DNA of 64,000 nt, from NCBI RefSeq assembly GCF_001597725.1, contig NZ_LUTR01000015.1, positions 1 to 64,000 on the forward strand, given 5' to 3'. The stretch comes from Neptuniibacter marinus (GTDB taxonomy: Bacteria; Pseudomonadota; Gammaproteobacteria; Pseudomonadales; Balneatricaceae). Shown here piece after piece: positions 31,487 to 35,587 of the stretch. A program made the position numbers and the translations under genes. A model generated the notes under the pieces. That model did not search any database. It had not been told where the DNA came from and saw only the letters and a list, made by a program, of their open reading frames with translations. Position 1 is the first letter of the stretch. The number at the start of each line of letters is the position of its first letter.

Positions 31487-31563
31487 GTCCCAGTAGCTCA
31501 GTAGGATAGAGCGGTCCCCTCCTAAGGGACAGGCCAGGGGTTCGAATCCTCTCTGGGACACCA
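31487..31563 (+). tRNA. tRNA-Arg (anticodon CCT)
   Basis: A complete cloverleaf is visible: acceptor GTCCCAG/CTGGGAC, D arm GCTC/GAGC, anticodon stem GTCCC/GGGAC with loop CTCCTAA (anticodon CCT), T arm AGGGG/CCTCT with TTCGAAT, and encoded CCA. Its last 17 bases are repeated at 35568, marking the gene as an integration target. Confidence 0.96.
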
Positions 31564-31566
31564 TTT
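31547..31566 (+). repeat. attL-like direct repeat (tRNA end)
   Basis: The left copy of the 20-base repeat covers the last 17 bases of tRNA-Arg(CCT), including CCA, plus ATTT. Confidence 0.8.
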
Positions 31567-31721: not shown

Positions 31722-33293
31722 CTATCTATCAGAGGCAGGGGCAGCAACCTTAATAGGAGCTTCAATGGAAGGCTCAGCAGTACTTGCAGCCTTAGTATCT
31801 TCTACTAGCCCCTTATCTACTAGCTTGAAAGGAACAGTATTTGCTTGTTTACCGACCTTTTCACTAGAAACGCTGTCAACTGAAGAACTATTATTCGCCA
31901 GAACCGCCGGCAGATTCCAAGCAAAACATGCAAGAACAAGATGGACAACAAACACACCCATAACACTAAACCTGTACAACCTCTTATAAGGGTCCGTTCT
32001 GGCCTCTACATGTTCATTAAACTCATCGGCAGACATGTGATTTCGAGTAACATTCTTCCAATAAAGTAAGTCATTCCAAGAAAGCCTTAACCCCTGATAA
32101 CCAACCGCCACTCGAATAACAACACTGATCACAAGATATGCCGCAAGTCCTTTTGCAAGAGCAGCGAACAGTTCTGATTCAAGAAAACTATCTCGACCCG
32201 CAAGTCGAGATAGCAAGCCAATTGAGAGCAGGAAGATAGATGACAACGCATCCTTCAATAGCCCCGAAACCAAATCATGAGCAGATTCAGAATATCCATC
32301 ACTGGCTGACTTAACATCCTTCTGAAGCTCAGCCAATTCCTTCGCATGTGCTTCTTTACGATCTTTTATGACAAATTCATAGCGCCATTGTGCTTGCTCT
32401 AGCGCCTGTTCAAGGTGTGGATAAAGAGAGGGCAACAAGCCATTATCTTCTGGCAAGTCCAAACTCAGTCTATCCATGAGCAACAGTAAGCGTGTTTCTG
32501 TACGCTCTGCATAAACCCAGCGAACACATTTCTCTAAACGATGTAAACTCTCTATGCCCTCTACAGCCCCTTCTCCGGACAAAGCTATAGTGATCCTTTT
32601 AATACCAGCAACAACAACCTTATCACGGGAGTAAAACTCTTTAACAAGACAACTAACAAGTAATTCCTGATAACAAGCAAAGACATAACTCAAACATTCT
32701 TGCCCAAATGCAGAATCTGGCAACCTGAAACAAGAGGGCTGAATTTTTACAGAGTAATCTGCAAGCACATGTACTTGCGCCCTTATACTTTCATCAGGAG
32801 GAAGATCTGCCTCATACGCATTCAACTCTTCAACATTCAAATTTTCCTGAACAGGCAAAATTGATAAATGCTCTCCGACATACGCTTCATCAACTCCATT
32901 CAACCATACTGAAACTTTATCGCTGCGGTAGAACGGATGATTTGCATCAAACGGAGACGGGAGATCCTGCAACCACTCTTTAAAAAAATCGATTGAAAAA
33001 AACAACAGATTCGTAGAATTCGGTAATCGGTTTAATTGTGAATCAATAAATTCATTTTTAAATAGATTTACATTGCAGCTTCCATATGGAGCAGCCGCAA
33101 TATCTTGCCACTCCTCGGCACGATCACCATCAATCGTTAACACCAAAATCCCTTCATCCATCAAGGCCTTAAAGTCACAGTTCGCACAATCTAGATCAGC
33201 AGCAGCAAAAGTAAATTCAACACGATCCTCTAACTCAGTAACATCTGAGATAGATCGCAGATCACTTAATGCTTCGAGCGTCCCAGCTAACAT
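31722..33293 (-). CDS. unknown membrane protein, second gene of the island operon
   Basis: This is a 523-residue protein that I do not recognise. The first 310 residues appear soluble and mixed alpha/beta. A charged helix (about 325-350, rich in Lys, Glu and Ala) looks like a coiled coil. Three hydrophobic segments follow, near residues 365-382, 395-417 and 446-468, then a Ser/Val/Ala-rich tail. The plan is thus a large cytosolic N-terminal part with a membrane C-terminal part. The gene starts two bases after the stop of the NA37-like gene, so the two are translationally linked. In many defence modules a cytosolic sensor gene is paired with a membrane effector; that role is inference here. 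Confidence 0.75.
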   Translation of the reverse strand: MLAGTLEALSDLRSISDVTELEDRVEFTFAAADLDCANCDFKALMDEGILVLTIDGDRAEEWQDIAAAPYGSCNVNLFKNEFIDSQLNRLPNSTNLLFFSIDFFKEWLQDLPSPFDANHPFYRSDKVSVWLNGVDEAYVGEHLSILPVQENLNVEELNAYEADLPPDESIRAQVHVLADYSVKIQPSCFRLPDSAFGQECLSYVFACYQELLVSCLVKEFYSRDKVVVAGIKRITIALSGEGAVEGIESLHRLEKCVRWVYAERTETRLLLLMDRLSLDLPEDNGLLPSLYPHLEQALEQAQWRYEFVIKDRKEAHAKELAELQKDVKSASDGYSESAHDLVSGLLKDALSSIFLLSIGLLSRLAGRDSFLESELFAALAKGLAAYLVISVVIRVAVGYQGLRLSWNDLLYWKNVTRNHMSADEFNEHVEARTDPYKRLYRFSVMGVFVVHLVLACFAWNLPAVLANNSSSVDSVSSEKVGKQANTVPFKLVDKGLVEDTKAASTAEPSIEAPIKVAAPASDR

Positions 33294-33295
33294 AA

Positions 33296-34414
33296 TCAGG
33301 CTTCATCCAATTGCACAGTACGAATCGTTATTACTTGTTCATTACCAATTTGAGCAACCTCAATATTATTACTCTTACGCGTGCCCTGAAAACTGACTTT
33401 AACTCCTGTACTAGTTTTAAGAGTGGTCGTACGTGAATTTTTAGGTATTGAATCTGGGCGAGCGTCAAAAACCTGACCAGCAATTCCTTTTTCTGCCAAT
33501 AGATCCCTTAAAGATGCCTCATGGGCTACTTTTAGCTGTTCTCTCTCAGCTTTTTCTGCATCTGTCATTCCCTCAGAGGTATACGCACCTAGAACACGAT
33601 TAACAAACTCATCAGTATTGAATGAATCAGCATTTTCAAAATAGTTAATTGCCCTTGCTTTAAAATCAGATCGCCCCATATCCTCAGGTAGATCAGGCAA
33701 GCCCTTTGCCCACTCATTCACACCACTGACTGTATTCTTGGTTAGAGTTGAGGCATTTTCGCGGACTGTTACTTGAAGGAAGTTTTTAAAATAACTGGAG
33801 ATCGCAACTTCTGTGTCTTTTTTGGCTGATGCCGTATCTCGCTGGAGCGCTAAAACGTTCCATGCAAAAGTACTTGCAGGATCAACAACTGCCCATTTTT
33901 GCAAAGCTCTAGGGCTATCTGCAAGGGAATCCATAACTCTTGTCAGAGATACAATTTGCTCACCGTTCACCTGTGCAACTTGCTGTTGATATACGGTGGA
34001 ATAGTCAACCTTTAAAAAGGCTAACAGATTGTGCCTGACATTATTTAACAATACAGAGAAAACAGAGACTATAAAGACTCCCTCACTCATCGACTTGTTA
34101 TGCGCGCTAAAGAAACGACCCGCTAAACGCCTAGAGATTGGCTTTAGCTGAGCAGGCACATCATCAAGTAACACCTCGCAATCACTCTTGCAGGTATTGT
34201 TATCAGGATCACTAAAAATAAACTGAGTTCCATCGCATGCACTGCGAATGCAGTTTTCGAAAAAAGCTTTCTGTTCGGAGCTCAGAGATACTTGGTCATT
34301 ATAGTCAGGCTCATCAACATCTTTCCGAATAATATGATAGATAAAGCTTTCGATCTGAATAGATTCTCTAACCGCTTCAGTAAATGTTGCTACAACAGGT
34401 GCTGGTGCATTCAT
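33296..34414 (-). CDS. NA37/NdpA-like nucleoid-associated protein, first gene of the island operon
   Basis: This 372-residue protein resembles the 37-kDa nucleoid-associated family (YejK/NdpA). I base this on the overall plan: an ESFIYHII start, a central strand EGVFIVSVFSVLL, a helical YFKNFL block near residue 210 and a C-terminal segment with DSIPKNSRTTTLKTSTGVKVSF. The last is the charged DNA-related end typical of the family. Cysteines cluster near residues 55-80. The remaining identity looks low, so I am moderately sure. YejK binds nucleoid DNA; here a copy sits in a tRNA-linked island ahead of a membrane protein gene, not in a core locus. An operator-like 20-base repeat lies at 34481-34520 upstream. 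Confidence 0.65.
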   Translation of the reverse strand: MNAPAPVVATFTEAVRESIQIESFIYHIIRKDVDEPDYNDQVSLSSEQKAFFENCIRSACDGTQFIFSDPDNNTCKSDCEVLLDDVPAQLKPISRRLAGRFFSAHNKSMSEGVFIVSVFSVLLNNVRHNLLAFLKVDYSTVYQQQVAQVNGEQIVSLTRVMDSLADSPRALQKWAVVDPASTFAWNVLALQRDTASAKKDTEVAISSYFKNFLQVTVRENASTLTKNTVSGVNEWAKGLPDLPEDMGRSDFKARAINYFENADSFNTDEFVNRVLGAYTSEGMTDAEKAEREQLKVAHEASLRDLLAEKGIAGQVFDARPDSIPKNSRTTTLKTSTGVKVSFQGTRKSNNIEVAQIGNEQVITIRTVQLDEA

Positions 34415-34480
34415 TATGTATTCCTTTACACGCCATAAAATACAAAGTCGTATTATAGTCTTCGCACTTCTATTTTAAAT

Positions 34481-34520
34481 ACTACAAACTACAAAAGAAC
34501 ACTACGAACTACTGAAAAGT
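34481..34520. promoter_or_regulatory. tandem 20-base direct repeat in the divergent promoter region
   Basis: ACTACAAACTACAAAAGAAC at 34481-34500 is followed directly by the related ACTACGAACTACTGAAAAGT at 34501-34520, about 15 of 20 bases matching, and a partial third unit starting ACTAGAAATC. It sits between the NA37-like gene (minus) and the toxin gene (plus), where an operator would be expected. Confidence 0.5.
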
Positions 34521-34638
34521 ACTAGAAATCACTTTTGCTACCACTTTTCTTGATGAACATTACTCTTAGATTAAGCAATGGCTAACTTCCACTTACGCTG
34601 TACAATAAAGTCCTTTTTTAAACAGCTAAGGAAGGCCT

Positions 34639-35052
34639 GTGGCAAAAAATTTTAAATTCGTTAATGCAGCAGCTAAGCGTGAATTTCAAGCATTACCTGA
34701 CGAAATAAAGCAGCAATTTTCTACTGACCTTAATGCTGTATGTCAAAATGAAGACCCCTTCTCCGATTTCAAGGATATTTCACCATCTGTTGGCACCGGT
34801 GCCATAGAGCTCATAGAAAATGGTAGCCCTGCCTACCGAACCGTATATTGCGCAAAATACCTTGATACGGTGTTTATCCTCCATGCTTTTGTAAAAACAA
34901 CAAACGGCGTCGACCGAAGAGCGATGGACACAGCAAAAAAACGTCATAAGGACATGATGGAAGAAGTCAGACTTGCTATGCAAGAAGCAAAAACGTTAGC
35001 AAAGCAGGCGGGCACACGTAAAACAAGCAGAAAGACAAAGAAAAAGCGTTAA
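34639..35052 (+). CDS. HigB-like toxin (phage-derived Gp49-like family)
   Basis: This is a 137-residue protein of the RelE/HigB-like family of ribosome-dependent mRNA nucleases. The core (about residues 1-95) has the order helix, strand, GTGAIEL, YRTVYCAKY, VFILHAFVK, seen in Gp49-like/HigB toxins. The C-terminus is a very basic tail (TRKTSRKTKKKR). It starts with GTG at 34639 behind AAGGAAGG. An XRE-type antitoxin gene follows 112 bases downstream, in the toxin-first order of higBA. Expected action is cleavage of translated mRNA unless neutralised; it probably stabilises the island. Confidence 0.82.
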   Translation: MAKNFKFVNAAAKREFQALPDEIKQQFSTDLNAVCQNEDPFSDFKDISPSVGTGAIELIENGSPAYRTVYCAKYLDTVFILHAFVKTTNGVDRRAMDTAKKRHKDMMEEVRLAMQEAKTLAKQAGTRKTSRKTKKKR

Positions 35053-35164
35053 ATATTGCCGCTTAACAATTTTGTTCAAAATGACTATGAATTTTTTTCA
35101 ACACAAAAATATATAAAATTATATATATTAAGTAAGACACTTAATTTTGCTCAGGGAAACTATT

Positions 35165-35485
35165 ATGGAACGCCTACAATACGAAAACATTTTTGAGGCG
35201 ATAAATGATGATCAAGCTGATGCAGCTGACTTAGCATTCAGAGCTGACTTAATGCTTGTTATAAGGAAAATCATCAAACAGAAATCATGGAAACAAGCCG
35301 AAGCAGCCGCAGCGCTTAGCATACCGCAACCGAGAGTAAGTGATCTACTTTGCGGAAAAGTGGACAAATTTTCCTCAGACGCGCTTATCGGCTTTCTCGC
35401 TAGATTAGGGTTTCGCTTCAACCTTCAGTATCAGTCAGAACGACAAAAGCCTCTTCAAGTAAAAGTTCGGCAAGAAGCTGCTTAA
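35165..35485 (+). CDS. HigA-like XRE-family antitoxin
   Basis: This is a 106-residue DNA-binding antitoxin. A helix-turn-helix lies at about residues 42-70, with QAEAAAALSIPQPRVSDLL and a following GKVDKFSSDALIGFLARLG, the HTH_37/XRE pattern common beside Gp49-like toxins. The ATG at 35165 follows CAGGGAAAC; an in-frame TTG six codons earlier is less likely. It should bind HigB and repress the pair. The gap between the two genes (about 110 bases) is long for a toxin-antitoxin operon and is AT-rich, so the antitoxin may have its own promoter. Confidence 0.85.
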   Translation: MERLQYENIFEAINDDQADAADLAFRADLMLVIRKIIKQKSWKQAEAAAALSIPQPRVSDLLCGKVDKFSSDALIGFLARLGFRFNLQYQSERQKPLQVKVRQEAA

Positions 35486-35567: not shown

Positions 35568-35587
35568 TCCTCTCTGGGACACCATTT
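35568..35587 (+). repeat. attR-like direct repeat
   Basis: The right copy of the 20-base repeat ends the island. The flanking base differs on each side from the left copy, so the repeat is exactly 20 bases. Confidence 0.8.

Follow-up and report, generated by a model that had tools for sequence, protein, structure and literature searches.

Why should an NA37/NdpA(YejK)-like gene be coupled to the gene of a large membrane protein, in a small island next to a tRNA gene of Neptuniibacter marinus? The two genes lie within a stretch of 64,000 nucleotides of contig NZ_LUTR01000015.1 (hereafter the window), and the initial annotation had seen in them a candidate new defence system, in which a DNA-related sensor and a membrane effector would follow the plan of abortive-infection systems. 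Judging from the genomic context analysed here, the pair is probably an unnamed bacterial immune system.

The gene pair and its island

The NA37/NdpA(YejK)-like protein, which is the proposed DNA-binding sensor (372 aa, 33296..34414, minus strand), is encoded by the first gene of the putative operon, and the membrane partner, which is the proposed effector (523 aa, 31722..33293, minus strand), by the second, located 2 bp downstream. The list of open reading frames agrees with the initial annotation on the coordinates and strand of both frames and on the two-base gap, and the order on the minus strand (NA37 gene first, partner second) is that of one putative operon. The divergent intergenic region between the operon and a toxin–antitoxin gene pair (34415..34638) displays one promoter-like site directed towards the operon (34452-34479, minus strand, 10 of 12 consensus matches). 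This site is graded as weak because promoter-like sites are no more numerous in the region than in shuffled sequences (6 versus a shuffle mean of 8.1). An ACTAC-rich stretch, possibly an operator, is found at 34480-34525, between the pair and the toxin–antitoxin genes.

The attachment gene of the island is a tRNA-Arg(CCT) (31487..31563, plus strand, detected with ARAGORN). An exact, att-like 20-bp direct repeat, TCCTCTCTGGGACACCATTT, is present at the 3' end of this tRNA (31547..31566, plus strand) and again at the distal border (35568..35587, plus strand); these two copies, 4021 bp apart, are the sole sites with at most one mismatch in the 3.45-Mb assembly. The repeats thus bound an island of 4.0 kb, occupied by the pair together with a Gp49/HigB-like toxin (34639..35052, plus strand; PF05973, E 2.5e-14) and an HTH_37 antitoxin (35147..35485, plus strand; PF13744, E 8.2e-21), so that the pair does fill most of a tRNA-linked island beside a toxin–antitoxin pair, as first described. 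The antitoxin may start at the ATG at 35165 instead of the listed TTG, and its helix-turn-helix is weakly similar to phrog_296, a protein of phage transposition (E 0.0014). None of the four main open reading frames of the island matched an integrase family in Pfam, NCBIfam, PADLOC or PHROGs.

The corresponding slot, from a flgN-like gene to a TPR response regulator, was compared in 10 other genomes of the genus, nine of which retain both flanks. Five of these nine slots are near-empty, with the tRNA and little else between flanking genes 141-208 bp apart, and two others measure 539 and 755 bp. The slot of the nearest relative (97-98% protein identity) spans 2.25 kb and holds a LysR gene, and one further genome carries 6.1 kb with an apparent tricarboxylate-transport and two-component set. 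All nine sister stretches (L038-L046) contain the repeat as a single copy, with 0-2 mismatches; a copy of the tRNA 3' end at each border, against a single one in relatives, is the arrangement of a tRNA-targeted island. From this comparison, the window island is apparently a recent insertion at a variable tRNA-Arg(CCT) site, which also takes non-defence cargo.

A divergent NdpA-like protein with a YejK-type fold

The NA37/NdpA-like identity of the first protein is borne out both by its score against the Pfam NA37 family (PF04245: 55.4 bits for a cut-off of 24.6, E 8.7e-15) and by the resemblance of its model to the solved E. coli YejK. The protein also matches phrog_1974, a phage family of unknown function (E 4.1e-19). 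Its AlphaFold model (pLDDT 81) has a single clear structural match in the PDB, namely YejK 9be2, recovered by the Foldseek comparison that had been proposed as a check (E 6.8e-6, probability 1.00, TMq 0.41) and by VIA (Z 15.1, 293 aligned residues, the next row being at Z 5.4). The associated rmsd of 10.0 suggests shifted domains or an error of the model. A sequence search of solved structures did not reach 9be2 and returned no significant relative of either the NA37-like or the partner family (best E 0.025 and 0.12). RexA and RdgC are absent from the 50 VIA rows listed for the NA37 model, an absence that excludes neither.

A canonical NdpA gene (156.5 bits) is present elsewhere in the host, on a different contig, and the island protein is therefore an extra, divergent copy. 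In a midpoint-rooted maximum-likelihood tree of 24 pair-type NA37 rows (including L025 and L027) and 16 canonical rows (from 16 of 20 control loci), one branch with 100/100 support parts the pair-type proteins from canonical NdpA. The window protein groups with the copies of Methylotenera (L035) and of a Xanthomonas plasmid (97/99), and the row from a phage (L067) sits on a long branch, its placement being unsure. This split, added to the canonical copy found elsewhere in the host, rules out that the window protein is the canonical, housekeeping NdpA.

According to work cited in the excerpt of PMC10561277, E. coli YejK binds DNA; for the pair-type NA37 protein, DNA binding is predicted from the YejK fold of the model. 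The window protein is acidic (pI 5.1), which might speak against DNA binding, but this argument was dropped because the 16 canonical NdpA proteins are equally acidic (pI 4.5-5.6).

A protein of this family on a mobile element could also act as a regulator, displacing host nucleoid proteins and thereby switching on island or transfer genes, while the membrane partner would only modulate this activity. A precedent exists: according to the excerpt of PMC8565334, NdpA2 of the integrative element PAPI-1 and TprA together lift the repression exerted by MvaT and increase the transfer of PAPI-1, and such regulatory NA37-like proteins on mobile elements also count against an immune role for the pair. 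However, NdpA2 is described in the same excerpt as 97% identical to the chromosomal NdpA, whereas pair-type NA37 proteins are split from the canonical ones and tied to a partner, and no transfer genes were seen among the open reading frames of the window island. We accordingly regard a regulatory or anti-silencing role as distinctly unlikely.

The membrane partner

The initial description of the 523-aa protein, a coiled coil with three C-terminal membrane segments, is matched by a long helix in the model (residues 286-364, DSSP) and by three C-terminal hydrophobic segments on the Kyte–Doolittle scale. The part of the helix that precedes the membrane forms a putative stalk (residues 286-340, 32274..32438, minus strand), in which A301, K318, L320, L323 and K325 are nearly invariant in an alignment of 15 partners. 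The predicted membrane segments, all read on the minus strand, are TM1 (residues 341-359, 32217..32273), TM2 (residues 375-393, 32115..32171) and TM3 (residues 447-465, 31899..31955). The same alignment accords with the three of them, the mean hydropathy of the segment aligned with TM1 ranging from 0.8 to 1.7; three C-terminal segments exceed the hydropathy threshold in 13 of the 15 partners and two segments in L022 and L024. The loop joining TM1 to TM2 is short (7-17 residues) and holds 0-3 K/R; TM2 and TM3 are separated by a segment of 51 residues with 6-11 K/R in 15 out of 15 partners. Since the positive-inside rule is an established principle of membrane topology, this K/R-containing segment suggests an N-in, C-out orientation, in which the N-terminal half and the stalk would be cytoplasmic, alongside the NA37 protein.

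The partner is variable in length (446-588 aa in 28 pairs). Its model displays an alpha/beta N-terminal half followed by the long helix and by helices 374-416 and 422-469. No Pfam family scored above its cut-off (DUF6410, at E 0.011, lies under its own and was rejected), NCBIfam and PADLOC gave nothing at E≤1, and PHROGs gave only weak matches. Likewise, Foldseek searches of the PDB and BFVD with the partner model returned nothing at E≤0.001. VIA rows for the helical C-terminus (a designed bundle at Z 12.1, ClyA 11.6, MukF 9.8-10.0, Mrs2 9.6 and ExbB 7.9) were set aside because such Z values are within the range expected for long helices. Thus, neither a recognisable effector domain nor a convincing fold match emerged from Pfam, PADLOC, Foldseek and VIA; this, and the moderate quality of the model (pLDDT 69, pTM 0.37), weigh against the pair being an immune module.

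Linkage of the two genes across genomes

Homologues were sought in plasmids, viral contigs, phages and genomes with the window NA37 protein, its relatives and profiles as queries. NA37 homologues were retrieved from plasmids, one viral contig, three other genomes of a 398-genome phylum sample, one phage record and, for 22 loci, the GTDB contig collection. Relatives proved better queries than the window sequences themselves, which yielded nothing for the partner in viral contigs and plasmids or for NA37 in phages. A total of 35 loci, window included, was examined; they come from Proteobacteria and Bacteroidota, from plasmids, and from a phage and a viral contig, and include near-copies (L004/L016, L032/L068, L028/L029 and six Pseudomonas loci).

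A homologous partner frame lies directly downstream of the NA37 gene in 30 of the 35 loci (the partner frame of L037 extends past the end of its sequence stretch), compared with none of the 20 canonical NdpA loci taken from relatives of the host as controls. The five loci that lack an intact adjacent partner are L025, where the NA37 gene stands alone among apparently core genes, L027, whose stretch ends just after the NA37 gene, and L036, L069 and L071. Decayed copies are seen in these last three: in P. rhodesiae (L036, 8001-8983) the NA37 gene is split and the partner shortened, on S. meliloti pSymA (L069, 8540-10430) the partner is in fragments, and in B. barranii (L071, 7001-7739) the NA37 gene is split and no partner was matched.

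Spacing was determined for 28 pairs: the gap is -4 nt in 11 of them. For the 26 pairs in which it was counted from a start codon, it lies between -41 and +14 nt; L031 and L072, measured from the open frame, are not included in this range. Across 22 non-redundant pairs, with mean identities of 30% for NA37 and 22% for the partner, distances between NA37 proteins and between partners are strongly correlated (Mantel r 0.887, a value reached by none of 5000 permutations). By identity, the Methylotenera pair (L035) is the closest to that of the window, at 36% for the NA37 protein and 27% for the partner. On this sequence evidence, the pair is a conserved two-gene unit, inherited together. The neighbourhood search suggested at the outset thus turned out in favour of the pairing: the homologues do occur together, and many of them on mobile DNA or near defence genes, not mostly in core loci.

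The pair is rare and patchily distributed. A single-sequence query with the partner matched one of 57 relatives, namely the host itself, and the same kind of query with the window NA37 protein matched only the host among 274 genomes of the class; the NA37 group as a whole is present in 4 of the 398 genomes sampled from the phylum, the host being one of them. This distribution, along with the slot left near-empty in five of nine sister genomes, already disfavours a housekeeping pair, in which an NdpA paralogue and a membrane anchor would organise the chromosome. The partnerless gene among core genes in L025 is the observation that would suit such a pair, and it also stands against an immune module; all in all, we consider a housekeeping function very improbable.

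Six Pseudomonas loci (L011, L017, L018, L019, L021 and L036) share a block of 3-5 kb, at 89-96% identity, set in different flanks, and in these loci a 209-aa frame accompanies the pair. A DUF3800 protein comes next in L018, L019 and L021 (by eye), and a pooled scan yielded three mREase_II-like proteins, the one of L018 being confirmed singly.

Carriers and defence neighbourhoods

Intact pairs are carried by conjugative plasmids, and plasmid stretches with an intact pair also bear annotated integrases. A viral contig combines an intact pair with an integrase-like frame (by eye), and Thiobacimonas phage vB_ThpS-P1 (KT381864.1), which is probably temperate, harbours a pair (L067, 1587-4543) about 0.9 kb from a Cro/CI regulator. 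The Methylotenera pair lies between Wadjet genes upstream and a TnsA/B/C/TniQ-like set downstream (the latter by eye, Pfam supporting the transposase only).

As these carriers are often plasmids or phages, the most serious rival explanation is a module of stabilisation or exclusion. The pair would then tether DNA to the membrane for stability or partition, or would block the entry or establishment of a second copy, with no cell killing. Carriage of the pair by plasmids, by a phage and by a viral contig is consistent with this possibility, and so are the union of a DNA-binding fold with a membrane protein, which suits tethering, and the toxin–antitoxin genes of the window island. Nevertheless, the pair also occurs in a chromosomal island with att-like borders and as a neighbour of several unrelated defence systems, and among 50,697 phage records only one was matched by the queries from L017, and none by the window NA37 query. 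We judge exclusion or maintenance unlikely, yet worth keeping in mind.

The defence neighbourhoods come from PADLOC scans of 128 of 145 neighbouring proteins (the set was limited to frames of at least 150 aa and leaves out some that looked spurious), 20 proteins being scanned singly. Within 5 kb of the pair, single scans identified the Septu proteins PtuA and PtuB in L016, TmtA and a partial-length CBASS cyclase in L024, a subunit of a type I restriction system in L013, JetA in L035, mREase_II in L018, PD-T4-5 in L021 and a ThsB-like protein in L031. The pooled scan, with locus assignment by eye, added ZorC and ZorD (L037), JetC (L035) and a dGTPase (L033); some further matches, among them DpdE, Cas13-ApeA, PDC-S58, mad3 and AriA, are credited to no locus. 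The pooled totals per family cover the first 25 of 186 families (A7) and all 16 families (A8). In addition, L034 gave a DndA/SspA match, and a phospholipase-D anti-phage protein is annotated by NCBI in L003.

For comparison, 138 of 145 proteins from 19 of the 20 control loci were scanned (L066 was dropped), all from relatives of the host and thus not phylum-matched. They matched 25 families, none assigned to a locus, including dGTPase, RtcR-like proteins, HerA and AAA ATPases. The control matches to mad2 (6e-15) and mad8 (5e-17) have counterparts of similar strength in pair loci, and these families were discounted. Single matches such as the dGTPase of L033 or DndA/SspA of L034 carry little weight, since control loci also give matches. 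Three of the 24 scanned pair loci contain at least two components of the same known system (Septu in L016, Zorya in L037 and Wadjet in L035), versus 0 of 19 control loci, by reading of the family list. Strong defence matches were assigned to only 8 of the 24 (L013, L016, L018, L021, L024, L031, L035 and L037), a proportion that tells against the immune module.

Two further neighbourhoods are recorded here. In P. syringae (L020, 10886-15958), the pair is immediately followed by the gene of a 1690-aa HEAT-repeat protein, which gave no PADLOC match at 1e-15 and may be an uncharacterised defence protein. In Novosphingobium (L028, 3259-7418), the genes upstream of the pair encode a methyltransferase, a Schlafen AlbA_2 protein and an unassigned 384-aa protein, and possibly form another defence cluster.

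Proposed function

A functional reading can start from an operon, its conservation as a unit, a YejK fold in the model, a recurrent membrane topology and neighbourhoods that are both mobile and defence-associated. With slightly better than even confidence, we propose that the two genes form one mobile abortive-infection module, in which a YejK-type DNA sensor is coupled to a membrane-damaging partner on the plan of RexAB. The abortive-infection idea of the initial annotation has gained from the linkage, the mobile and defence neighbourhoods and the YejK fold, its mechanistic part being inferred.

By analogy with such systems, DNA sensing, contact between the proteins, membrane damage and protection might be linked as follows. 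The NA37-like protein, with its YejK-type fold, would probably dimerise on DNA and could load on invader DNA or replication intermediates, thereby sensing invading or fast-replicating phage or plasmid DNA. It would then contact the cytoplasmic alpha/beta half of the inner-membrane partner, whose stalk helix leads into the three putative membrane helices. Once activated, the partner might open or distort its own membrane part, so that the membrane would be damaged or depolarised and growth would stop before the invader multiplies, as in the lambda RexAB plan.

Besides the points raised above, this abortive-infection reading has to face the metabolic cargo taken by the same slot within the genus, and the lack of any sequence match of either protein to RexA or RexB. 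A broader version of it, which we hold a little short of an even chance, is that of a widespread, unnamed two-gene immune system in which a YejK/NdpA clamp has been recruited as a sensor of invader DNA and wired to a three-helix membrane effector. The RexAB plan would then have arisen twice, independently, and this second version would have been disseminated across two or more phyla by plasmids, phages, a Tn7-like element and an integrase-less tRNA island.

If the immune reading is true, the pair would be a compact (approx. 2.7 kb) and broadly distributed defence module, absent from PADLOC 2.0, in which a core nucleoid protein has been turned into an immune sensor. It would provide, beside lambda RexAB, a second system for studying how a DNA-binding protein signals phage replication to a membrane effector, with some twenty divergent pairs available for comparison and mutagenesis.

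Comparison with known systems

The initial annotation did not recognise the pair as a named system, and the databases concur. No NCBIfam model matches the window proteins, and PADLOC-DB 2.0.0 gave no family at E≤1 for the two of them, or at E≤0.01 for six partner and four NA37 relatives. Among the matches listed from the open-access PMC literature, judged by titles and the starts of abstracts, none describes the pair. It may have been predicted elsewhere, since catalogues newer than PADLOC 2.0 (2023), such as DefenseFinder, and bioRxiv lie beyond the scope of these searches.

NdpA copies on mobile DNA are on record. The excerpt of PMC10561277 describes an Acidithiobacillia copy located at a tRNA with restriction-like and toxin–antitoxin genes, and that of PMC10305613 reports copies in Pseudomonas phages PseuP_222/224; neither excerpt mentions a membrane partner. 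Excerpts of PMC7466150 and PMC5537653 mention a plasmid ndpA and an NdpA-like gene in prophage phi2LM21, respectively; that of PMC12409358 has no bearing on the pair.

With canonical NdpA/YejK, the NA37 protein of the pair shares PF04245, the overall fold and an acidic pI, but it differs in its own tree group, its patchy and mobile distribution and its link to a partner. The resemblance to NdpA2 of PAPI-1 lies in an NA37 gene on a mobile element; however, as far as the excerpt of PMC8565334 goes, NdpA2 works with a ribbon-helix-helix regulator, whereas the NA37 protein of the pair would work with a membrane protein.

For either window protein, none of the cyclase, TIR, ATPase and protease families was above its curated cut-off. 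CBASS, retrons and other abortive-infection systems with transmembrane effectors follow the logic of a sensor joined to a transmembrane effector, and it is this general plan that the pair would have in common with them.

RexAB is the closest parallel in design, although the window proteins gave nothing at E≤1 against PF15969 (RexA) and PF15968 (RexB), families that lambda RexA and RexB themselves match at 1e-97 and 8.5e-92, and hhalign profile comparisons failed as well (probability 0.7% for lambda RexA and 0.1% for RexB). To judge from these profiles, the pair is not a member of RexAB and the families are unrelated by sequence. The membrane proteins also differ, RexB being of 144 aa with four predicted membrane segments and the partner of 446-588 aa with three and a large cytoplasmic part. 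No CI-type repressor is present among the open reading frames of the window island. In RexABpp of the P. putida prophage P1, RexApp, a clamp dimer in models, is a DNA-binding protein that activates RexBpp; the latter then permeabilises the membrane and growth stops (excerpt of PMC12894663). The likeness lies in a two-gene operon for a soluble protein that binds DNA, or is predicted to do so in our pair, and for an inner-membrane protein. RexAB is carried by prophages, and the position of the pair near a Cro/CI regulator in phage vB_ThpS-P1 is reminiscent of that of rexAB beside cI.
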